From Acholeplasmataceae bacterium (GTDB lineage Bacteria; Bacillota_I; Bacilli_A; Acholeplasmatales; Acholeplasmataceae): a DNA stretch of 64,000 nt. Positions 40,799 through 51,504 of the stretch are shown piece by piece (the first letter of the stretch is position 1; each line of letters begins with the position of its first letter). The notes below the pieces were generated by a model. The model made no database searches, was not told the DNA's origin, and saw nothing but the letters and a program-made list of their open reading frames with translations. The stretch lies in NCBI GenBank assembly GCA_030603805.1, contig JAUVXD010000005.1:1-64000 (forward strand). Reading direction: 5' to 3'. Both the position numbers and the translations under genes were made by a program.

Positions 40799-41569
40799 TT
40801 AATCCCCCTCTGCTTCGGTGATATCTTTTTTAATATCACTATAGATTTGGTCTATACCTGTATCAATGGATTTTTCTTGATCAAAAACTTTCTTGCTATA
40901 AATCTTATAGGTTTCTTCACCTGTAATGGCAATCATCGCCATACCAATTTTAACTAAAATGATTTGAAGTGCGATATCTTGGGTAAAGCGTCTACCCCAA
41001 TAAACAGGATTGACGGCATTCATGACTGTAAATGCAGCTTTCGTCACTTTATTGTATTTGGTTGCTGTTTTGACGATTGGGTTATTTTCGATTTTATTTT
41101 TAGTTTCATTAAGTTCAACCAGTTTACTTAAAGTCATCCCTCTAAAGAGTCTTAAAATTCTACCTCTTAAAAGCTCTTCAAGACGGTCTGTGATGTAGTG
41201 ATTGAGGAGTAAGGTTTCATCTAGTGTGAGTTCAAGGTAAGGATATCTTGATTTTGGATAAAATTTCTTAGCGATATCAACCGATAATTCTCGATTAATT
41301 TGCATTAAATACTTAGGGTATCCGATTTGCGTTCTTTGTTCTTTATCCTTAAACTGAAGCTGCGCATCTTTAATGAGCATCTTAATTTCTTCTTCATCAA
41401 TATCTTCTTCATCGGCAGCTTTAAGTTTAAGACCCTTGTTCAAACTCATTAAAACTGCATAAAGATAAATCAGGAGTAGCAGTATAAAGCCAAAACTGAC
41501 GCCAATTAGAAAACTGACGAATGTTGAAAAATCAAATCTAATGGAGTTAATAAACGATAAAAAGTGCAT
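40799..41569 (-). CDS. Hypothetical membrane protein paired with the FtsK-like translocase
   Basis: No family is recognised for this 256-residue protein. It has one strong N-terminal membrane helix (about 17-42), an acidic stretch (ADEEDIDEEEIKML), and a mostly helical soluble part. A second weakly hydrophobic segment lies near residues 205-222 (IALQIILVKIGMAMIAI). The ATG follows AAGGAGG and a TATAAT at 41594-41599. It is translationally coupled to the TM-less FtsK motor gene, which suggests it tethers or regulates the motor at the membrane. This role is inference. Confidence 0.75.
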   Translation of the reverse strand: MHFLSFINSIRFDFSTFVSFLIGVSFGFILLLLIYLYAVLMSLNKGLKLKAADEEDIDEEEIKMLIKDAQLQFKDKEQRTQIGYPKYLMQINRELSVDIAKKFYPKSRYPYLELTLDETLLLNHYITDRLEELLRGRILRLFRGMTLSKLVELNETKNKIENNPIVKTATKYNKVTKAAFTVMNAVNPVYWGRRFTQDIALQIILVKIGMAMIAITGEETYKIYSKKVFDQEKSIDTGIDQIYSDIKKDITEAEGD

Positions 41570-41624: not shown

Positions 41625-41652
41625 GAAAAGAAAGGAACCAACAAAGGTTCCT
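41625..41652 (-). terminator. Intrinsic terminator of the pilus operon
   Basis: On the minus strand, AGGAACC/GGTTCCT (41646-41652 with 41633-41639) with a 6-nt loop is followed by TTCTTTTC. It starts at the stop codon of the last pilus gene. Confidence 0.85.
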
Positions 41653-42217
41653 AATTGACAATCACATCGTTATGAAAGGTGTAAATGCGCATCAGATAAA
41701 CATAGTCTTCATTTAAGTTTCTTGATGCTGAGATCGACTCAATATAATAGATCCGATCTTGGTCTAATAAATTGTTGATGAATAAGAAGATTTCATCCGT
41801 ACCATCAAAGGTCATATTCAAAGTGATTAAAGTATATCTTACCGTTTGAGGAAGACTTTGAGTAAAGGGTGATTGAACACCTGTATCAAATCTAATTTGG
41901 TAACCATCGACATTGGAGAGACCAGAGAGATTTTTTACATAATCAAATTCATTGGTAATTTGTGTTTGATTGAATGTGTTGGGCAAATATTGAATAATCG
42001 CTCCAATTTCATTGTGGATATTGGTTTGACCAGAAGCGAGCACTAAATTGATTTCAAACTGAAGATTTGTTTGTTCACGTCTAAGTTCTTCTAATCTTCT
42101 TTCCATCACTTGACTGATATAAAATCTAAGTCCAACTAAAATGAGTGTTAATGCTAAAATGAGATAGATAATTTTGATTTGATTGACTTTTTTGCCAAAA
42201 ACGTTGATTTTACGCAT
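41651..42217 (-). CDS. PilO-like pilus assembly protein
   Basis: The 188-residue bitopic protein has a short cytoplasmic N-terminus (KKVNQIK), one membrane helix (about 15-33), a coiled-coil segment (RRLEELRREQTNLQFEINL), and an extracytoplasmic ferredoxin-like domain. This is the architecture of PilO/GspM proteins of the inner-membrane platform. Primary sequence similarity is weak and the call rests on architecture and position: it follows the PilM-PilN fusion with an 8-bp overlap and ends the operon. Confidence 0.72.
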   Translation of the reverse strand: MRKINVFGKKVNQIKIIYLILALTLILVGLRFYISQVMERRLEELRREQTNLQFEINLVLASGQTNIHNEIGAIIQYLPNTFNQTQITNEFDYVKNLSGLSNVDGYQIRFDTGVQSPFTQSLPQTVRYTLITLNMTFDGTDEIFLFINNLLDQDRIYYIESISASRNLNEDYVYLMRIYTFHNDVIVN

Positions 42218-43673
42218 AGGTCACTTTAACCTCCCTAGCAATACCTGAGAGTGTTCGGACACTTGGACTAGATACCATCCAACGATCATTTTGAAAAGAG
42301 CCTGAGATGATGCCGTAATTCTCATAAATGTTGATGATGTACTCATCAAGAATAACTGGGATATCGGAAATGATGATCAGCGTCATGGTCTTTGTTTTTT
42401 GATCAAGCACAAAGCTTGCAATGGTCATGCCAGGTACTGCTTCATTCAAAAGATTGTTGACATAAGTATCATAAAACATCTCTTGTGTTTTTAAGAAATT
42501 ATAGGCATTGCTATACTGAATTTCTCTTTGAGTATAGATTCTAGCTGGTGGCGTTTCCCTTAAGACAATCTCAAGTTGATTTTGAAGGTTATTATTAATG
42601 CTTTGTTGAGTGTTGATATCAATTTGAAGCGTTTGAAAAGGTAGATAAACTAAAAGTGTTCCAGCAAAAATGAAAAATGAAATGGCTAAGATGACATTTA
42701 AAATTTGATTAATACCTGGTTTTCTTTCTAGATGAAAGTGAAAATCTTGATACATTTGAATTCTTGAATCTTTGACTTTACTTGAGATTAAAGCGACTTG
42801 AGTCACTTTCGGCATCGCTTTAAGTGAATCACCTTGACCTAAAATATCAACAACTTCGATCTCATAATCTGTTAGTTTGGAAAAGAGTTTCTCTTGAAGC
42901 ATTTTATACGTAATATCTTCAGAAAAATTGAAGAAGACTACATGTTTGATGAAAGCTGCACCTTTTTTCAAGTTGAAACGGTAATAATTTGAAATACGTT
43001 CAACATAATTTTCAACCATCTCAAAGTATTCCATCGCTGAATCATCAGATTCTTCTATGATAGAAAATACAGGTGTACCCTCTTCAATGATTTTAATTGA
43101 GACTTGTCTTTCATATAAAGAAACGAGCATCACAATCGGCTGTGGTGTCTTTGTTTTTAAGAGATATGCGTTATAAAATGCTAGGGATGGAATATCAAAA
43201 GTGACTTGTTTAATACCGAGACGATCAAATATATCATGATAATCGTGCAAAATATCAGAGTTTGCAACAATTAAAATGATTTTATAGATTGCTGCATCTT
43301 CATAAGTGACATGATAAACATATGATGGTGTAGCAAAAGGTGTATGGATATCGATATTGATTTTTTGAGAAATGTAATTTTCTAAGGTTGATTTTTGTAA
43401 ATCTTCTTTTTTAATAATCACTTCTCTATTGATTAAAGAATGATCGCTAATAACAAACTGAACAAACTTTGGCTTAATCTTATTGATTTTGAACATGGTC
43501 TGCATCTTTTTAAAGAGCAGTTCTGGTTCTAAAATTTTGCCATTAAGAATGGTATTTGGATCAAGGTCGATGTATCCATGTTTTTCATCTTCAGTAAAAT
43601 CAGATTTGGAAACATAAAAACCGACTCTAGAGTCTGTACAGAAAATTGAGATGGTGCGTTTTTCTTTTGCCAT
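42210..43673 (-). CDS. PilM-PilN fusion, pilus inner-membrane platform
   Basis: The 487-residue protein appears to join two pilus components. Residues 1-315 resemble PilM, an actin-like cytoplasmic protein with a DSRVGFYVSKSD start and a YVERISNYYRFN helix. A single membrane helix follows at about 325-346, then a short coiled coil and a PilN-like outer domain (about 350-487, with LLNEAVPGMTIASFVLD). In most systems PilM and PilN are separate and bind through the PilN N-terminus, so fusion is plausible. It lies between pilD and pilO. Confidence 0.75.
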   Translation of the reverse strand: MAKEKRTISIFCTDSRVGFYVSKSDFTEDEKHGYIDLDPNTILNGKILEPELLFKKMQTMFKINKIKPKFVQFVISDHSLINREVIIKKEDLQKSTLENYISQKINIDIHTPFATPSYVYHVTYEDAAIYKIILIVANSDILHDYHDIFDRLGIKQVTFDIPSLAFYNAYLLKTKTPQPIVMLVSLYERQVSIKIIEEGTPVFSIIEESDDSAMEYFEMVENYVERISNYYRFNLKKGAAFIKHVVFFNFSEDITYKMLQEKLFSKLTDYEIEVVDILGQGDSLKAMPKVTQVALISSKVKDSRIQMYQDFHFHLERKPGINQILNVILAISFFIFAGTLLVYLPFQTLQIDINTQQSINNNLQNQLEIVLRETPPARIYTQREIQYSNAYNFLKTQEMFYDTYVNNLLNEAVPGMTIASFVLDQKTKTMTLIIISDIPVILDEYIINIYENYGIISGSFQNDRWMVSSPSVRTLSGIAREVKVTYA

Positions 43674-43677
43674 AGTC

Positions 43678-44430
43678 TCACATCCTTAAAAGATTGATAT
43701 ACCAGTTAATCAAGCCATCTCCCCATAGATAAGCGATAAACGCTCCAATCATGATGAATGGTACTAATGGAATATACTGATGATCATTTCTTATGAATAT
43801 TTTACCATAAATAAAACCAAAGAGTGATGCGAAAAATAGGGAGAGTAGTGATTGTTGCCATGTCAGGAAAAACCCAACAAATAGGTATAGTTTTATGTCT
43901 CCGCCACCAAGTGCATCCTTCTTCAACATGAGTTTACCTGTTAAAGCAATGACATAGAGTAGAACAAACATAATGAGTGCAGAAGTTAGGTGGATTAAGA
44001 AACTTTGATTGAGGATTGAGATGATAATTAAAGGCACTAAACCAATCATCCAAATACGATCAATGACGATTTTTCTTTTGACATCACTCATCGTTTCGAT
44101 AAGCATAACAATCAGAAAAATAGAGACACTGAAAAATTCGTACGAAAAATCATAAATAAGGTAAATCATAAGAAACGATAAACCACCAAATAGTTCGACT
44201 AAAGGATACTTCACTGGGATTTTGTAGCCACATGATGAACATTTACCACGATTTTTGATATAGCCAATCAGTGGTAGGACATCGATGAGATTTAAAGGTT
44301 TCTGACATGATTCACATTGACTATGTCCTAGAAGTGTTTGTTTTTTAGGAATGCGTTCTAATAAAAGAAAGCCAAATGAGACAAAGAGCATTCCGATATA
44401 GGTGATTAAAAAACCATAGAAAATCTCCAT
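43678..44430 (-). CDS. pilD: Prepilin peptidase (type 4 prepilin leader peptidase)
   Basis: This membrane aspartyl protease cuts the positively charged leader of prepilins and may N-methylate them. The 250-residue polytopic product has the N-terminal zinc motif C39-x2-C42...C64-x2-C67, and the catalytic aspartates Asp116 (MSDVKRK) and Asp178 in GGGDIKL. Substrates are the three prepilins at 44506, 49202 and 49683 and perhaps the 50315 product. The ATG follows AAAAGGGG. Confidence 0.93.
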   Translation of the reverse strand: MEIFYGFLITYIGMLFVSFGFLLLERIPKKQTLLGHSQCESCQKPLNLIDVLPLIGYIKNRGKCSSCGYKIPVKYPLVELFGGLSFLMIYLIYDFSYEFFSVSIFLIVMLIETMSDVKRKIVIDRIWMIGLVPLIIISILNQSFLIHLTSALIMFVLLYVIALTGKLMLKKDALGGGDIKLYLFVGFFLTWQQSLLSLFFASLFGFIYGKIFIRNDHQYIPLVPFIMIGAFIAYLWGDGLINWYINLLRM

Positions 44431-44449
44431 GAATATTCCCCTTTTTAGA

Positions 44450-44485
44450 TAAAAAGGAGGTTTCTCGATGAGAAAAAGCCTCCTT
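44450..44485 (-). terminator. Intrinsic terminator after the major pilin gene
   Basis: On the minus strand, AAGGAGG...CTC/GAG...CCTCCTT (arms about 44470-44485 and 44454-44466) with a 3-nt loop is followed by a T-run. It separates the pilin gene from pilD and probably stops most pilin transcripts. Confidence 0.75.
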
Positions 44486-44505
44486 AATTAAATTGATTTT
44501 TAAGA

Positions 44506-44919
44506 TTATGGTTTTGGATTACCAGTAAAGTTGTTGCCTGATAATTCCATTTCAACACCATTGAGTTCTAATCCAGTAGCAGGAGCAACAATTGAAATTG
44601 TTACAGTGTTTCCACTAACAGTGATGCTGATGTGTGTTTCGTCGGCCGCAGCACCAAGAACTGCATAATCAGTAAGTGCGATAAATTCACTATCAAGTAA
44701 ATCATCTAATGTGAAAGTTGCTACACCTTCTTCAACTGAATACAATCTAGCTTGTTGAACGATGTTGCTATAAGTTTGCTTAGCAGCATTTTCTCTTTGT
44801 CTTGCAATAAGACCACCAATGGTTGGTACTGCGATTGCAGCAATGATTCCAAGAATCACAACAACTGCAAGTAATTCTACAAGGGTAACGCCTTTTTTGT
44901 TCTTTAAAGTCTGTAACAT
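44506..44919 (-). CDS. Major type IV pilin (ComGC/PilA-like prepilin)
   Basis: The 137-residue prepilin has the class III leader MLQTLKNKKG, cleavage after Gly10, then VTLVELLAVVVILGIIAAIAVP with the conserved Glu at mature position 5. The head domain is about 90 residues and has no cysteines. Its own promoter (44975-45003), 5' hairpin and terminator suggest strong independent expression, as expected for the major subunit. Confidence 0.92.
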   Translation of the reverse strand: MLQTLKNKKGVTLVELLAVVVILGIIAAIAVPTIGGLIARQRENAAKQTYSNIVQQARLYSVEEGVATFTLDDLLDSEFIALTDYAVLGAAADETHISITVSGNTVTISIVAPATGLELNGVEMELSGNNFTGNPKP

Positions 44920-44974
44920 GAGTTAATCTCCTTTTATACTTTATTTGTCTTATTTTATCATTAAATCTATCTTA

Positions 44975-45003
44975 ATGATAGTTTAAAGATGAATAATTGT
45001 CAA
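44975..45003 (-). promoter_or_regulatory. Promoter of the major pilin gene
   Basis: On the minus strand a perfect TTGACA (44998-45003), a 17-nt spacer and TATCAT (44975-44980) precede the pilin. The 5' leader holds the stem ATCATTAA/TTAATGAT (about 44957-44979), which may protect the mRNA. Confidence 0.7.
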
Positions 45004-45031
45004 TCAAATTAATGAAATCTTAATGAATGAT

Positions 45032-46252
45032 TTAGAGTTGGCTTCCCAGTGATAACATTGGTAACATTAATGCAATTAGCATCAAACCAACAATCAGATA
45101 AACGACGAGCATTAAAACTGGTTGTAATGCGTTTTTAATTTGTTCGACTCTCACTTCTGTGACGCCATTATAATAGGTAGAAAGGTTATCCATGAGTTTA
45201 GGAATATCGCCACTTCTTTCACCGGTAGCAATCATCTTAGACATTATCGGATCAATATAAGGACTTTCTTCAAAAGACTTTGAAAATGGTTTCCCATCTT
45301 CAATATATTTTATGGTTTTCCCTATGAGTTCTTTGTAGACAACGTTGCTAATAACGTTTTCTGTTGTCACTAAAGCATCCATGGAATTAATACCCTTACC
45401 CATCATTTGTGATAAAGCGTTTGCAATTAAGACTTGGTTATTCATTTGAATCAGTTCTCCAAAAACGGGTATTTTAAGCAGAAACTTGCTTAAGCCTTCA
45501 TGAAATGGAGGACTGAACTTATTTAAGCCGCTTATGACAAAAACAATCGCAAAGATGCTACCAAAAATATAGAGTGCATTTTCTGCCATGAACTCCCCTG
45601 CATTGATGAAAAATGCAGTAATTGCTGGAAGCTGAGCATCCCCAAAGGCTGCAAATAAACTGGTAATATTCGGGAAAACGAATATGAGCATCCCTGCAGC
45701 AATCCCTAATGCAACAATCAAATAAATCACTGGCATTCTGATTGCTGATTTAATTTGAGCACTCACCTTGAGTGAATTTTCATAATAATTCGCCATTCTT
45801 AAGACTGTATCTGCTAAGTCTCCTGAAATCTCTCCAATTTCTATCATTTGAATGAGTAGTTTTGGAAACTCTTTAGGTCGATAGGATAATGCCTTTGAAA
45901 ATGAGAATCCATTATAAATTTGTTGATATAATTCAAAATATATTTTTCTTAATTGTCTATTTTCTTGCTGGAGTGATAAAAGTTCAAGCGAAGGGAGTAA
46001 TTTGATCCCTGCTTTAAGGAGTGCACCAAGTTGTTTTAGGAAGAAAACCAAATCTTTAGGTTTTAAGAGTGCACCAATCGTAATGGCATCCAATTTCGCT
46101 AATATATTCGTATATTCTGTAAGTTTAATCACTTCATAGTTCTTAGCATTTAAAAACTTAATACAAACCTGACGATTTAAGGCTTCAATTCTTCCCTTAA
46201 CAAGTTTTTTATCTGCAGTGTATGCAGTATACCTATAGTTTCTAAGTTCCAT
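45032..46252 (-). CDS. pilC: Type IV pilus/T2SS platform protein PilC (GspF family)
   Basis: The 406-residue inner-membrane platform protein works with PilB to extract and polymerise pilins. It contains two GspF repeats (about 70-190 and 270-395), each followed by membrane helices: FFLKQLGALLKAGIKLLPSLELL and NQVLIANALSQMMGKGINSMDAL. The ATG follows AAGGTGAG. It starts 9 bp after pilB. Confidence 0.94.
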   Translation of the reverse strand: MELRNYRYTAYTADKKLVKGRIEALNRQVCIKFLNAKNYEVIKLTEYTNILAKLDAITIGALLKPKDLVFFLKQLGALLKAGIKLLPSLELLSLQQENRQLRKIYFELYQQIYNGFSFSKALSYRPKEFPKLLIQMIEIGEISGDLADTVLRMANYYENSLKVSAQIKSAIRMPVIYLIVALGIAAGMLIFVFPNITSLFAAFGDAQLPAITAFFINAGEFMAENALYIFGSIFAIVFVISGLNKFSPPFHEGLSKFLLKIPVFGELIQMNNQVLIANALSQMMGKGINSMDALVTTENVISNVVYKELIGKTIKYIEDGKPFSKSFEESPYIDPIMSKMIATGERSGDIPKLMDNLSTYYNGVTEVRVEQIKNALQPVLMLVVYLIVGLMLIALMLPMLSLGSQL

Positions 46253-46261
46253 CGTCTCACC

Positions 46262-47917
46262 TTAATCCTGTGTGACTTTTAAAACTTCTTCTAATGTGGT
46301 AATCCCTTGCTGAACTTTCTTTAAACCTGCTTGAAGCAAGGTTGTCATGCCTTGTCTTTTCGCTTCTTTTTCTAAATCTTGAAGGGGTGCATTTTGTGCA
46401 ATGAGTTTCTGCATGACGCTATTGATGGGAAGTATTTCAAAAATACCCACACGTCCGACATAACCTTTATAATTACAAGAAGGACATCCTCTTGAGCGTT
46501 TGACTTTTGCATCTTCAATCAAATATTTCTTAAATAAAGCAACTTCAGTTGGTGATGGTTCATCATCATAGCTGCATTGACTACATAATCTTCTGACCAA
46601 ACGTTGTGCAATCACTCCAGTTAATGAGGATGCGAGTAAGAAAGGTTCAATTTCCATATCGAGTAGACGCATCACCGTTTTAACAGCATCATTGGTATGA
46701 ATCGTAGATAAGACTAAATGTCCAGTTAGGGATGCACGAATTGCAATCTCTGCTGTTTCAACGTCTCTAATTTCACCAATCATGACGATATTGGGGTCTT
46801 GTCTTAAAATCGATCTTAATGCATTGGCAAACGTTAAGTTGACTTCTGGATGTACTTGAATTTGATTAATTCCAGGTACTTTAATTTCGACTGGATCTTC
46901 AACTGTCATAATATTAACGCCTGGACTATTGAGTTCATGTAAACAAGAATAAAGTGTTGTTGTTTTACCAGAACCTGTGGGTCCAGAAACTAAAACGATG
47001 CCATTTGGACGATTAATCATCTCTCTAACGATTTTTTCATCTTTATCTTCTAAACCAATGGCCTTAATCTTACTCATAGAGCCAGATAAGTCCAAGATAC
47101 GCATGACGACTTTTTCACCTCTTACCGTAGGTAGTGTTGAAATACGTAGGTCGATTGACTTATCTTGAATCATGGTTTGAATTCGGCCATCTTGAGGAAC
47201 TCTAGTCTCTGTAATATCCATACCAGACATAACTTTAATTCTTGAAATCATTTGGGAATGAATTTTAATTGGAAATTCTCTCACCACATCTAAAACACCA
47301 TCGATACGATAGCGGACAAGGACTTTGTCATCGAGTGGATCAATATGAATATCGGATGCTCTTTGAAAAACTGCAGATGCTAATACTTGGTTTACCAGTT
47401 TGACCATCGGTGTATCTTCATAGTCATCTTCTTCCTCTTCAACAGACTCACTGATGACATTTTGCTTAACACCTAAAGCTTCTAAAGTTCTTGTAAATCC
47501 ATAATATTTTTCTATTTGTGAGATAATTTCATTTTTGGGAGCCGAGTAGGGCTTTGGACGATACCCAGTCATCATTCTTATTTCTTCAAATGTGCCAAAA
47601 TCAAGTGGATCAGAGGTTGCAAACGCAATCTTTGTATCTTCAATTCTTAAAGGAATGATTCCTGTTCTTCTACAAAACTGCTCATCAATCATTTGAAGGA
47701 CTTGTTCATCAATGTTATAGTTTCCAAGAGATATTCTTCTAACCCCTGTTGGCCCTTCTAAAGCTTGTAAGACTTGAGCTTCAGTTGTAAATTCTAAACG
47801 CACAAGGGTTTCACCAAGTCGTTCAGATTTTTTTTGTTTTTTTAAGGCTTCATGAAGTTGTGCATCAGAGATGACACCAGCTGAAATGAGTAAATCACCT
47901 AAACGTTTGAGTGCCAT
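46262..47917 (-). CDS. pilB: Type IV pilus assembly ATPase PilB (GspE family)
   Basis: The 551-residue hexameric ATPase powers pilus assembly. It has a full N-terminal MshEN-type domain (1-150), Walker A GPTGSGKTT at 312-320, the Asp-box and RIDGVLDVV region, Walker B GEIRDVETAEIA, and a zinc motif CSQC...CPSC. This length matches PilB/GspE rather than the short ComGA. The start is the ATG at 47915-47917, overlapping the upstream TGA. No PilT is seen nearby. Confidence 0.95.
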   Translation of the reverse strand: MALKRLGDLLISAGVISDAQLHEALKKQKKSERLGETLVRLEFTTEAQVLQALEGPTGVRRISLGNYNIDEQVLQMIDEQFCRRTGIIPLRIEDTKIAFATSDPLDFGTFEEIRMMTGYRPKPYSAPKNEIISQIEKYYGFTRTLEALGVKQNVISESVEEEEDDYEDTPMVKLVNQVLASAVFQRASDIHIDPLDDKVLVRYRIDGVLDVVREFPIKIHSQMISRIKVMSGMDITETRVPQDGRIQTMIQDKSIDLRISTLPTVRGEKVVMRILDLSGSMSKIKAIGLEDKDEKIVREMINRPNGIVLVSGPTGSGKTTTLYSCLHELNSPGVNIMTVEDPVEIKVPGINQIQVHPEVNLTFANALRSILRQDPNIVMIGEIRDVETAEIAIRASLTGHLVLSTIHTNDAVKTVMRLLDMEIEPFLLASSLTGVIAQRLVRRLCSQCSYDDEPSPTEVALFKKYLIEDAKVKRSRGCPSCNYKGYVGRVGIFEILPINSVMQKLIAQNAPLQDLEKEAKRQGMTTLLQAGLKKVQQGITTLEEVLKVTQD

Positions 47918-47918
47918 A

Positions 47919-49115
47919 TCAATCACCTACCTTGGGAACAACATGTTGATAATATATTTCATTAATCGGTAAATATTGCTCGCTAAAGACTCTAATCACA
48001 ACAGGGTCTTCTCCAAGAACTGTCATGGTTCTATTAAAGAAGAGGACACTACCTAAAACACCTGCTTGATGAAGGAGTTGGTAAGTCATTTCTGTATCTG
48101 TTTCAGTGATGATGACACCTGGTGTGTTTTCATCAAGTGTATTGAGTGGCAAATAGATGGTTTGATAAGGAATCGCAATCTTAACTTCTGTATCAAAACT
48201 ATAGGTGGTAATGGTTGGGTAGCCAATCAGTTTAAAGGTAAGCGATGTGTCACTTGTTCTTTCAATCACAAATTTTAAATCTTGTTGACTTTGATTAAAG
48301 AAGGTAAGATCAAACTGATTAACTCTTAAAATCCTAACATTCATCCCATAATTTGCCCAAGTTGGTAAAGTTAAATTTTGCTCAAATAAGAATCCATTGA
48401 AATTCACCTTACCTGAGACACCAAGTAAACCGGATGCAATGATACTCATTTGAGTGTTTGTTAAAGGTAATGAGCTAAGTTCACTTAATAGAGAAAACCG
48501 CTTATTTTGTAAAATGATTAATTCACTACCATATTGCATAATTTGATCGGCATCTAGAATTGAAATATTGATCAATGTTGTTTGATCGATGACTGATTCC
48601 TGATAAGTGGATACGACATAATGAGACATTGAATAGACTTTTCTGCTATAAAGCTCATTGATATCTGAAAGTAAATCTTCAATCAGTTTTTCTTTTAGTA
48701 TGACTGACTGGTTACCCGCAGTTAATAGATTTGCAATCTCTAAAACTAGTAGGTCTTGGTTTTCTGGTGATATGGAAAAAACAGCTTTATTTCTTCGGTC
48801 TCTTTGGATTTGGTTTAAGGTTTCTTGAAGATTAAACTCAAAAAAGGACATATCAACTTGGTATGCATACTCTTGAAATGTCACTTGATAATTGGCAGAG
48901 TTCTTCCAAACAGTTACTTCTAGATTTAAAGTATCTGCATATTCAGATGTTTCTTTATTGCCTAAATAGATAAAACCGACTGAGGTTTGATCGACTTTTG
49001 TTTGATTTTGAAAAACGATAAACATGATGGATGCAAACAGCAAGGAAGAAAGAAGTGCCGAAAGTGTAATGACAAGATATAAGTTTCTTTTTATCCAGCT
49101 TGGGTTAACGTTCAT
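47919..49115 (-). CDS. Unknown bitopic protein of the pilus locus
   Basis: I do not recognise this 398-residue protein. It has a short cytoplasmic N-terminus, one membrane helix (about 12-35) and a long extracellular part of about 360 residues rich in beta-strand-like segments and Ser/Thr/Asn. It has no prepilin motif. It lies between the minor prepilins and pilB, with the pilB start overlapping its TGA. Position suggests a pilus alignment, priming or surface-attachment factor. That is inference. Confidence 0.75.
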   Translation of the reverse strand: MNVNPSWIKRNLYLVITLSALLSSLLFASIMFIVFQNQTKVDQTSVGFIYLGNKETSEYADTLNLEVTVWKNSANYQVTFQEYAYQVDMSFFEFNLQETLNQIQRDRRNKAVFSISPENQDLLVLEIANLLTAGNQSVILKEKLIEDLLSDINELYSRKVYSMSHYVVSTYQESVIDQTTLINISILDADQIMQYGSELIILQNKRFSLLSELSSLPLTNTQMSIIASGLLGVSGKVNFNGFLFEQNLTLPTWANYGMNVRILRVNQFDLTFFNQSQQDLKFVIERTSDTSLTFKLIGYPTITTYSFDTEVKIAIPYQTIYLPLNTLDENTPGVIITETDTEMTYQLLHQAGVLGSVLFFNRTMTVLGEDPVVIRVFSEQYLPINEIYYQHVVPKVGD

Positions 49116-49201: not shown

Positions 49202-49690
49202 TTATGCATAGCTGATGACAAGAAATGACACAACAAATGTATAATCTTCTGTTCCTGTTGTGATAACATACGTCATTTTAACAGTTTTCAAAGCATTGTT
49301 ATCCGATGTGGTAATAGAAAAATCAATGGACTTAAAGCTGTGATTGATGAGTTCAAATTCTTCAGCTTGAAAGTTTTCTTCAATTTCAAGGCGATAAGTA
49401 TCACCATCTGCTATTTTTCTAATAATAAAGACGTCTAAATCATTTGAAAAAATAAGTGTATCTTCATTAACATTTAAAACTACACCTTCTGGTTCAAATT
49501 GATTGAGTCTTGTGAGCAGTGTCGTTGTGAGGAGCACGCCTTGGCTATTGGCGGAACCTGATGAATAAATTGCATTTAAACTTGCAACAAATGAGATAAA
49601 GATGGTTGCAATCAATGCTGTTGCAATACCACCAATCGCAACCGCACCAATCAATTCAACCAGTGTGACACCTTGCTTGTTATTAAACAT
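49202..49690 (-). CDS. Minor prepilin (GspJ/ComGF-like)
   Basis: This prepilin has the leader MFNNKQG, cleavage after Gly7 and mature VTLVELIGAVAIGGIATALI with Glu5. The head of about 130 residues is beta-rich. The preferred start is the ATG at 49688-49690, 8 bp after GGAGG; it overlaps the previous gene's stop. Assignment to the GspJ/ComGF group rests on size and order only. Minor pilins usually prime assembly at the tip. Confidence 0.85.
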   Translation of the reverse strand: MFNNKQGVTLVELIGAVAIGGIATALIATIFISFVASLNAIYSSGSANSQGVLLTTTLLTRLNQFEPEGVVLNVNEDTLIFSNDLDVFIIRKIADGDTYRLEIEENFQAEEFELINHSFKSIDFSITTSDNNALKTVKMTYVITTGTEDYTFVVSFLVISYA

Positions 49691-50144
49691 TGACAAATGC
49701 CTCCACTGAAGTCATTCGATGACTAAAATAGTTAATTGTAATCGTGACTTTGATAATGGATTGTGCATTGATAGGTTTAACAACTGAAATGAAAATATTC
49801 TCATGGTTGTATGTTCTTCCCCCTATTGGTGGTTGGGAGAATAGGTTTGTACAAAAATCATGATCAAAATAGGTTCCACATGTATTGGGTAGTAAGTCTC
49901 TTGAAACCCCAGATGCATAACCTTCCATGAATGATTTTAGGTCAGCACTATGGGCATCATCTGTCATGTAGGTTGTAACATAGTTAGAAAGCATAATCGC
50001 TACTTGTGATGCAATAAGATACTCTTCAGTGGCCTTCGATTGTGTTCTTGAGTTAATCAAAATCGTCATGGTACCTACCATGACAAATGAAAGGATTAAT
50101 ATGCCTGCAAGTGCTTCAATAATTGTTAGACCCTTATGATTCAT
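49683..50144 (-). CDS. Minor prepilin (PilV/GspI-like)
   Basis: The short leader MNHKG is followed by mature LTIIEALAGILILSFVMVGT with Glu5, the pattern of PilV/GspI minor pilins. The head contains two cysteines (CGTYFDHDFC) that could form a disulfide. The ATG at 50142-50144 follows GGTGGTGAG. It is the first gene of the leftward pilus operon, with a perfect TATAAT at 50175-50180. Confidence 0.85.
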   Translation of the reverse strand: MNHKGLTIIEALAGILILSFVMVGTMTILINSRTQSKATEEYLIASQVAIMLSNYVTTYMTDDAHSADLKSFMEGYASGVSRDLLPNTCGTYFDHDFCTNLFSQPPIGGRTYNHENIFISVVKPINAQSIIKVTITINYFSHRMTSVEAFVNV

Positions 50145-50174
50145 GATTCTACTCACCACCATCTATTTGAACAA

Positions 50175-50180
50175 ATTATA
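50175..50180 (-). promoter_or_regulatory. -10 element of the pilus operon
   Basis: A perfect TATAAT on the minus strand lies 30 bp before the first minor-prepilin gene; no clear -35 is seen. The divergent gene at 50315 is preceded by TAAAAT at about 50283-50288, so the 170-bp gap holds back-to-back promoters. Confidence 0.5.
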
Positions 50181-50314
50181 CAATATTTAGGCTAAAAAAT
50201 CATAAAATTGTCTTGATTTTATGTGATTTACCCGGTTCTTAATGCATCTAATGGTGCAAATGATTTCTTTTTAAAATTTGTGATAAAATGAAAATAAGAG
50301 AGGAGGTGCCAAAA

Positions 50315-51475
50315 GTGAAGGATATCATCAATAACAAATCTGGAATATCACTGATGACTGTTTTAGGTGTTGTCGCTTTTTGGCTTGTTTCACTTTCAAC
50401 TGTCTTGGTTTTTGTGTTTAACGATTCCTCTTCTGTCAATCGTAATATCGAATATGAAAAAGAGTATGCTGAAGCAGTAAGTGTCATTCATGCTGCATAT
50501 CAGGTCATTGGTCCTGCACTCATTGCAGGAACCTATGATTACCAAGCGTCATTTTGGGTGAATTTTCATGAATCATTAAACATTACAGTAACAAAAAATG
50601 GTGACTTCTATGTTTTATCAAGACAAGTTGGTTTAAGAAGTTATTCTGGAGCTCTTGGCATTTCAGGTTCAATGATTGAATTGATTCCTGTACTCGATCC
50701 AAATGCACCCATTGATGAAGTCATGTTTCAAGCAGACAATATCTTAAATAGTTATCTAAATTTTTCTGGTGTCGCAGATCAAAACTTAAATTTTAGCAAT
50801 TTGGGTCAACTCGCCAATATGAATTATGATTTTACAGTATCAAATGTTGGTGAGTTATCTTTAGATTTAACAGGAAGTACTTATTCAACAGGTAGCCTCA
50901 ACTTAGGCGGAAATTCAGTAACTCATCTTGATACGAATGGTAATATGTTATTTGTGGATGGTAATTTAGATATTAATAATAATGTCCACAATAGTTTTTA
51001 TATGGATGGTGTGGTTGTTGTTAATGGCAACATGAATATTCCAAATAATGTTAAGTTATCTGGTGTTGTCATCGTTAAAGGTGATTTAACCATTCAAAAT
51101 GGTGTTAATGTTGAAGGCTTGCTAATTGTTAATGGTAAGACGACAATGGGTAATAGTGTCAACTTTGGTACACAACAAAATCCATCTTTCCTATTTTCAA
51201 AGGGACAAATTCAAGTTCAAGGTAGCTTTGATCTTTATGGTTTCTTATTTTCTGAAGGCTCAATCACGATTGGTAATGGTCAAGGCAATAAGTCCAATAA
51301 ACTAATTGGTGGCATCTACTCCTTCCACTCAGTGCCAACGATAGGATTCCACTATGGTCCAATTCAAATTCTAGATATCTCAGTGTTAAAAGACCAGGAA
51401 TATATTGATTTTTTAACTAGTGAAACTTCTGGTGGGGGATCCAATTTGGTTGTTACACAACCTAAAGTAAATTAA
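50315..51475 (+). CDS. Prepilin-like protein with beta-helical repeat domain
   Basis: The 386-residue product starts MKDIINNKSG, then ISLMTVLGVVAFWLVSLSTV, resembling a prepilin leader and helix but with Thr rather than Glu at position 5, as in GspK/PilX-type minor pilins. After a head of about 170 residues come 18-residue repeats at about 209-286 (GNMNIP, GDLTIQ and GKTTMG rungs) typical of a right-handed beta-helix or bactofilin-like fold. The start is the GTG at 50315, 6 bp after AGGAGGTG. It diverges from the pilus operon, so a pilus-tip or surface role is inferred. Confidence 0.75.
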   Translation: MKDIINNKSGISLMTVLGVVAFWLVSLSTVLVFVFNDSSSVNRNIEYEKEYAEAVSVIHAAYQVIGPALIAGTYDYQASFWVNFHESLNITVTKNGDFYVLSRQVGLRSYSGALGISGSMIELIPVLDPNAPIDEVMFQADNILNSYLNFSGVADQNLNFSNLGQLANMNYDFTVSNVGELSLDLTGSTYSTGSLNLGGNSVTHLDTNGNMLFVDGNLDINNNVHNSFYMDGVVVVNGNMNIPNNVKLSGVVIVKGDLTIQNGVNVEGLLIVNGKTTMGNSVNFGTQQNPSFLFSKGQIQVQGSFDLYGFLFSEGSITIGNGQGNKSNKLIGGIYSFHSVPTIGFHYGPIQILDISVLKDQEYIDFLTSETSGGGSNLVVTQPKVN

Positions 51476-51476
51476 G

Positions 51477-51504
51477 AATTGGACTCTTGAATGAGTCCAA
51501 TTTT
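51477..51504 (+). terminator. Intrinsic terminator after the beta-helix gene
   Basis: The stem TTGGACTC/GAGTCCAA (51479-51486 with 51493-51500) is followed by TTTTA. Confidence 0.8.

Follow-up and report, generated by a model that had tools for sequence, protein, structure and literature searches.

A minor pilin without Glu5 and with a predicted beta-helix, probably a tip cap, at a type IV pilus locus of an Acholeplasmataceae bacterium

Introduction

Core minor pilins form a tip complex that is capped by a subunit lacking Glu5 (review, PMC10191384). GspK/PulK, PilK and ComGG lack Glu5, belong to a minor-pilin group, occur in single copy and are linked to the assembly ATPase (PMC10191384); GspK carries a helical insert (PMC6561018). 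In Thermus thermophilus, the competence-associated pilin ComZ (PDB 6qvi) has a beta-solenoid placed ahead of its final pilin strand and has been proposed to act as a DNA receptor at the tip (PMC6561018). Salleh et al. reason on steric grounds that a solenoid-bearing ComZ can be accommodated nowhere but at the tip (PMC6561018). In modular type IV pilins such as Streptococcus sanguinis PilB, a functional module is displayed on a small pilin module, which in that case carries a vWA module and retains Glu5 (PMC8179133). Right-handed beta-helices also occur in surface-binding proteins, such as the tapirins of Caldicellulosiruptor (4wa0, 6n2b).

Here we describe a minor pilin gene in a window of 64,000 nucleotides (positions 1 to 64,000 of contig JAUVXD010000005.1) from an Acholeplasmataceae bacterium. 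Its product shares with ComZ a predicted GspK-type pilin domain joined to a large beta-solenoid, minor-pilin neighbours and a proposed location at the tip, and for the ComZ solenoid, as for the predicted beta-helix of a homologue, L024, the closest structure is an ice-binding protein. In contrast to these likenesses, no sequence match to ComZ was found, the solenoid measures about 135 residues in the window protein and about 380 in ComZ, and the Thermus envelope includes an outer membrane and a PilQ secretin. With GspK/PulK, PilK and ComGG the protein shares the missing Glu5, the minor-pilin group, the single copy and the linkage to an assembly ATPase, whereas those proteins are without a beta-helix and the NCBIfam GspK profile matches the family only at E 0.015. 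Its design, a module for display on a small pilin module, recalls S. sanguinis PilB, but the module is a predicted beta-helix and Glu5 is missing. The likeness to the tapirins is one of fold and similar geometry only, a sequence relation not having been found.

Results

The gene and its parts are arranged as follows.

50300..50308, + strand: Shine-Dalgarno sequence GAGGAGGTG of the beta-helix pilin gene, strong, read from the sequence
50315..51475, + strand: beta-helix minor pilin gene, 386 aa, from the ORF, the Shine-Dalgarno sequence and the family profile
50315..50344, + strand: prepilin leader, residues 1-10, with G or A at -1 in the family and cleavage expected after Gly10
50345..50524, + strand: pilin helix alpha1, residues 11-70, with Thr at +5 (AlphaFold helix 13-70; alignments A1 and A2)
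50525..50662, + strand: predicted small alpha/beta pilin sheet, residues 71-116 (AlphaFold; the same elements, at pLDDT about 89, in homologue L024)
50918..51322, + strand: predicted right-handed beta-helix, residues about 202-336 (AlphaFold, periodicity, VIA matches)
51323..51472, + strand: C-terminal tail with an invariant T-x-P motif (alignments A1-A3)
51477..51502, no strand: terminator-like palindrome 3' of the gene, before a HAD gene

The start codon is a GTG at 50315 and the stop codon ends at 51475; an in-frame ATG at 50288 is less likely to be the start, because it lies upstream of the Shine-Dalgarno sequence. The protein begins VKDIINNKSG, continued by ISLMTVLGVVAFWLVSLSTVLVFVF, with Gly at -1, then a hydrophobic helix, and Thr rather than Glu at +5. 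The original prediction of a prepilin-like N-terminus without Glu5 is thereby confirmed. These traits extend to the family: all 30 members with a readable start show the class III signal layout of type IV pilins (a short charged leader up to G or A, then a hydrophobic helix), the -1 residue being G in 26 and A in 4, and none has Glu at +5. The N_methyl profile PF07963, a match to which is usual for type IV pilins but not defining, found nothing in the window protein at E<=1; ComZ was likewise missed by PilFind (PMC6561018).

Rungs of about 18 residues had been noted from the sequence at residues 209-286 (DNA about 50939-51172), and they withstood statistical scrutiny. Over this stretch, 18 was the top lag both for autocorrelation of hydrophobicity (0.67) and for residue identity (0.32), and neither value was reached at any lag in 5000 shuffles (permutation p<0.001); for residues 204-290 the family-wise p of the 18-residue repeat was 0.0002. 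The period left no signal in residues 1-204 or 290-386.

With 16 sequences, AlphaFold predicted for the window protein a helix (13-70), a small sheet up to residue 116 and a right-handed beta-helix at about 202-336, mostly at pLDDT 70-87 and with irregular rungs past the regular 209-286 stretch; outside the beta-helix the model is weak, and its mean pLDDT is 56.6. L024, 24% identical to the window protein, gave with 21 sequences a model of pLDDT 87.3 and pTM 0.80, consisting of helices at 12-67 and 72-82, strands at 85-118 that form a three-strand sheet, helices up to 181, a beta-helix at about 187-334 and C-terminal strands at 358-382. The helix alpha1 and antiparallel sheet typical of pilins are predicted there at pLDDT about 89. 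A pilin domain and a right-handed beta-solenoid are present in both predicted models, in agreement with the proposal of a beta-helix behind a pilin-type anchor. C-terminal strands in the L024 model and the invariant T-x-P motif follow the solenoid, which would be compatible with an insertion of the ComZ type, between the final two strands of the pilin sheet; the C-terminal tail of the window protein (51323..51472) may return to that sheet.

Among the VIA matches of the window model were a bactofilin filament (6rib, Z 12.9), BacA (2n3d, Z 11.9) and the tapirin C-terminal domains 4wa0 (Z 12.9) and 6n2b (Z 12.0); the bactofilin-like rung geometry suggested from sequence is borne out by the first of these. 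For the L024 model the matches were ice-binding proteins (Z about 10), tapirin 6n2b (9.5) and ComZ 6qvi (7.9 over 178 residues), and the 50 structural entries listed for it included no bactofilin, which excludes nothing. Foldseek ranked ComZ 6qvi first for L024, weakly, at E 0.086, and returned no match at E<0.001 for either model. Since the Foldseek E value is weak, a tie to ComZ is only suggested, whereas the fold class, a right-handed beta-helix, is well supported. A left-handed helix was rejected, as those of the acyltransferases LpxA, LpxD and GlmU superpose at 11-12 angstrom rmsd compared with about 3 for right-handed helices. Sequence searches of the PDB with the beta-helix pilin returned weak beta-helix enzymes and nothing pilin-like.

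A profile of homologues built without the window protein matched it at E=7.7e-36 over the pilin part, the beta-helix and the C-terminus, scoring 116.8 bits against 13.5 for the best of 2000 shuffled copies. Single-sequence searches of the genome contigs found no relative with the window protein and, with one homologue, its own record alone. A search of the order with the family alignment located the gene in 21 of 160 genomes, one copy each, in three genera; class-wide, ten further homologues were found, all in a single family (f24). PilB (strong T2SSE match) is present in 21 of 21 carriers but in 13 of 139 non-carriers of the order (Fisher p about 1e-17, kinship of the genomes uncorrected). 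Remoter matches in three families (f16, f12 and f15) have about 380-710 residues and the same kind of Glu5-less start, and are mostly the third gene of the minor-pilin group at pilus loci (L099, L101, L102, L103, L107, L108).

No curated family of Pfam or NCBIfam reaches its cut-off for the beta-helix pilin family, and PHROGs yielded no match. GspK, ComGG and PilX_N, a match to any of which would be helpful though not defining for a tip-capping minor pilin, all stayed below cut-off within the family, GspK matching 3 of the 16 members weakly, with E 0.015 as the best value. Pfam Bactofilin (PF04519) gave E 0.28 on the window protein, at 11.9 bits against a cut-off of 27.9. DUF7305 (PF23981) covers the beta-helix of one f24 homologue (G265) at E 7.6e-5 and those of other homologues more weakly, but the best of them scores 22.4 bits where 27 are needed, and the window protein has no match. 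One remote relative (L105) matches Pfam PilX_N (8.5e-07) and also the family profile, there in its beta-helix portion (E 1.9e-4). From the distant-relative matches to PilX_N and DUF7305, the family is placed at the edge of the PilX/GspK group. It is a previously unnamed family of a known kind, in an atypical host. The combination of pilin and beta-helix had been called unusual, which holds only in part; the design has a solved precedent, ComZ already being a pilin with a beta-solenoid (PMC6561018).

The remainder of the pilus locus lies on the opposite strand.

49683..50162, - strand: minor pilin 1, 159 aa, Glu5 present (Pfam N_methyl just under cut-off; weak NCBIfam ComGE/PilV)
49202..49696, - strand: minor pilin 2, 164 aa, Glu5 present (Pfam N_methyl)
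47919..49115, - strand: p398, conserved first gene of the pilus operon, 398 aa, found at relatives' loci
46262..47926, - strand: PilB-type assembly ATPase with MshEN (T2SSE 9e-138, MshEN 3.2e-18)
45032..46252, - strand: PilC-type platform protein (T2SSF 5.5e-48)
44506..44919, - strand: major pilin candidate, PilA/ComGC-like, Glu5 present (N_methyl 9.9e-08; NCBIfam ComGC 1.1e-06, sub-cut-off)
43678..44430, - strand: PilD-type prepilin peptidase (A24_N_bact, Peptidase_A24)
42210..43673, - strand: PilM-like protein (TIGR01175 8.4e-08, under the curated cut-off)
41651..42217, - strand: PilN/PilO-like small membrane protein, by position (gene order, conservation)

Relatives across the class likewise have p398 at the head of the pilus operon; Pfam and NCBIfam searches assigned p398 (47919-49115) to no known family, and it is probably an unnamed core component of the pilus. 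A conserved protein of 256 residues with no assigned family, encoded at 40799-41569, lies between pilN and ftsK in relatives.

The expected linkage to pilB and pilC proved to be conserved: in 29 of 30 relatives the beta-helix pilin gene adjoins the minor pilins and the p398-pilB-pilC-pilA-pilD-pilM-pilN operon, read as far as the contigs reach, and the exception (L028) is a contig that starts within the gene. Usually, minor pilin 1, minor pilin 2 and the beta-helix pilin follow one another in the same direction, divergent from p398-pilB. At L027, L029 and L032, whose PilB proteins are the closest to that of the window and form a clade of four with it, the tip genes are co-directional with p398-pilB and the beta-helix pilin gene is flanked by minor pilin 2 and p398; only in L032 could minor pilin 1 be recognised. 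In the window, both minor pilins are co-directional with p398-pilB, and the beta-helix gene, on the opposite strand, is located upstream of the pair and separated by the palindrome at 51477-51502 from the HAD gene beyond it. The 29 relatives whose loci could be read all lack this divergence from the minor pilins; it is therefore a derived feature of the window genome rather than a conserved regulatory arrangement. The promoter scan left the + strand empty, and its hits were fewer than those in shuffles. The suggestion of joint control through divergent placement fails on this evidence, the gene being, among relatives, mostly the third of a minor-pilin operon.

How far has the window drifted from its genus? 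We compared median identities of the window to its genus-mates with those of the genus-mates among themselves, using seven to ten genomes per gene. On the motor side, the two values were 40 and 42% for p398, 73 and 84% for PilB, 63 and 70% for PilC, 48 and 58% for PilD, 34 and 40% for PilM, and 37 and 47% for PilN. For the tip trio they were 24 and 46% (minor pilin 1), 23 and 38% (minor pilin 2), and 22 and 50% (beta-helix pilin), the two small minor pilins being taken as orthologous from position and N-termini. Identity of the window trio to its genus is thus lower than that between the same genus-mates and another family of the class (33-40%). In trees, the terminal branch of the window measures 0.29 for PilB, 3.85 for the beta-helix pilin, and 2.07 and 2.83 for the minor pilins, although misalignment of such distant sequences may make the branches of the trio too long; because these branches are very long, the exact tree position of the tip proteins was not used. 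The tip trio (49202-51475) has diverged jointly and together with a change of gene order, and the motor genes (41651-49115) have not. The divergence would be accounted for if the tip cassette had evolved at a jointly accelerated rate or had been replaced. Composition lends no support to a recent acquisition of the tip genes from a source of foreign base content, the G+C of the gene being 0.344 and that of the window 0.355.

The host genome has 2.06 Mb, is 99.9% complete by tool estimate and encodes 22 GGDEF domains. Penicillin-binding transpeptidase and FtsW/RodA/SpoVE found no match in it, both searches being positive in 10 of 14 control genomes. A genus-mate, 'Tenericutes bacterium HGW-Tenericutes-2', is filed under Mycoplasmatota, and within the family the genomes of one genus measure 0.3-0.9 Mb, a range in which phytoplasma genomes also fall. 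From the missing wall genes, the genus-mate in Mycoplasmatota and the small genomes of the family, we infer an Acholeplasma-like, wall-less host. A full type IV pilus locus accordingly belongs to a cell that is apparently wall-less. Cyclic di-GMP is bound by some MshEN domains, and the MshEN domain of PilB (46262-47926), together with the 22 GGDEF domains, suggests cyclic di-GMP control of the pilus. A comEA-comEC pair lies on another host contig (L113:5507-8063, contig C22), and DprA was found neither in the host nor in any of the 20 genomes of the genus, the search being positive in 11 of 14 controls. Possession of comEA-comEC by a host whose whole genus is without DprA points to DNA uptake without classical transformation, perhaps nutritional.

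Discussion

We consider it likely, if well short of certain, that the gene product is a tip-capping minor pilin that carries a beta-helix as a display module, an estimate that does not extend to any given ligand. The leader motif, the missing Glu5, the predicted fold and the linkage all bear on this reading. The gene is encoded together with minor pilins and an assembly ATPase, and Glu5 is present in the major pilin and both minor pilins of the window and in nearly all minor pilins of relatives, but never in the beta-helix pilin; a cap with the beta-helix outermost is therefore the natural reading. The steric argument that confines ComZ to the tip would carry over to this protein by analogy. 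Of the two roles first proposed, a tip adhesin is the favoured kind, given the missing Glu5 and the minor-pilin linkage. A non-polymerising accessory is disfavoured, as absence of Glu5 marks the subunit that caps the tip complex (PMC10191384).

How might such a protein reach the tip? We envision a scenario, modelled on known systems, whereby PilD would cut off the ten-residue leader and the pilin helix would hold the protein in the membrane. Missing Glu5, it would not dock beneath another pilin and would thus come to lie on top, joining the two Glu5-bearing minor pilins encoded alongside. PilB and PilC would then insert major pilin underneath, so that the beta-helix would be driven outward at the end of the fibre, where it might make the first contact with a ligand, be it a surface, a polymer or DNA.

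As to the ligand, adhesion has a slight edge over DNA uptake. The tip protein might be an adhesin that attaches to solid or polymer surfaces (polysaccharide, mineral or other cells), tapirin-like in effect, and we regard this refinement of the tip-cap reading as plausible, at somewhat below an even chance. The tapirin C-terminal domains 4wa0 and 6n2b rank among the best VIA matches of the beta-helix, an MshEN-bearing pilus ATPase occurs in a genome with 22 GGDEF domains, and the quick divergence of the tip trio fits changing ligands. However, the beta-helix fold is common to many unrelated functions (bactofilins, ice-binding proteins, lyases), and the tapirin match therefore names no ligand. 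Alternatively, and with less probability, the tip-cap reading may be refined to a DNA receptor of a competence-type pilus, which, like ComZ, would pass DNA to ComEA and ComEC. ComZ is the first-ranked though weak Foldseek match, comEA and comEC adjoin each other in the host genome, and ComEC is present in 21 of 21 carriers against 81 of 139 non-carriers of the order (kinship uncorrected); moreover, a single T2SSE ATPase was found, hence no PilT was seen, as in Com pili. Yet the absence of DprA makes transformation of the usual type doubtful, the beta-helix is not basic (6 K/R, 8 D/E), ComEC is frequent also where the beta-helix pilin gene is missing, and MshEN on PilB with 22 GGDEF domains is more typical of surface behaviour.

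Is the machine a pilus at all? That the protein is a minor pseudopilin of a type II-like secretion pump, and not part of a surface pilus, appears improbable to us. Weak GspK matches in some homologues and the failure to find a second T2SSE ATPase are in its favour, but PilB with its MshEN domain and a PilM-like protein resemble a pilus system, and the host is apparently wall-less; if it is Acholeplasma-like it has one membrane, and a type II exit port would thus have no place. That the protein is bactofilin-like and polymerises via its beta-helix at the membrane, outside any pilus, is hardly credible, for notwithstanding the VIA matches of the window model to 6rib and 2n3d and a weak Pfam Bactofilin hit, that profile stays far under its cut-off, and the protein has a prepilin leader, a pilin helix with sheet, and strict linkage to minor pilins and pilB.

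For a tip-capping minor pilin with a beta-helix display module, what is added beyond ComZ is an unnamed family, a host without genes for penicillin-binding proteins and FtsW/RodA, and three tip pilins that have diverged jointly, at a far higher rate than the motor genes. One conceivable picture, which we hold to be unlikely as a whole, is that the family provides tip pilins to a type IV pilus of cells without wall or outer membrane, and that in the lineage of the window the three tip pilins form a fast-evolving receptor cassette, whose changes are independent of the conserved motor and re-aim a single machine at new ligands, possibly including food DNA taken up via ComEA-ComEC. In a literature search that covered few subscription journals, we found no account of type IV pili in Acholeplasma-like bacteria. 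Models of type IV pili rest on walled bacteria, mostly with outer membranes, and a complete locus of pilB, pilC, pilD, pilM and minor pilins in a genome without genes for a penicillin-binding transpeptidase and FtsW/RodA is a natural minimal system. The analysis proposes a role for a gene left without a name in the curated databases. It also adds a second case of the ComZ design, a pilin with a beta-solenoid at the tip, to which no sequence relation is seen, and thereby makes the tip-receptor model testable elsewhere.
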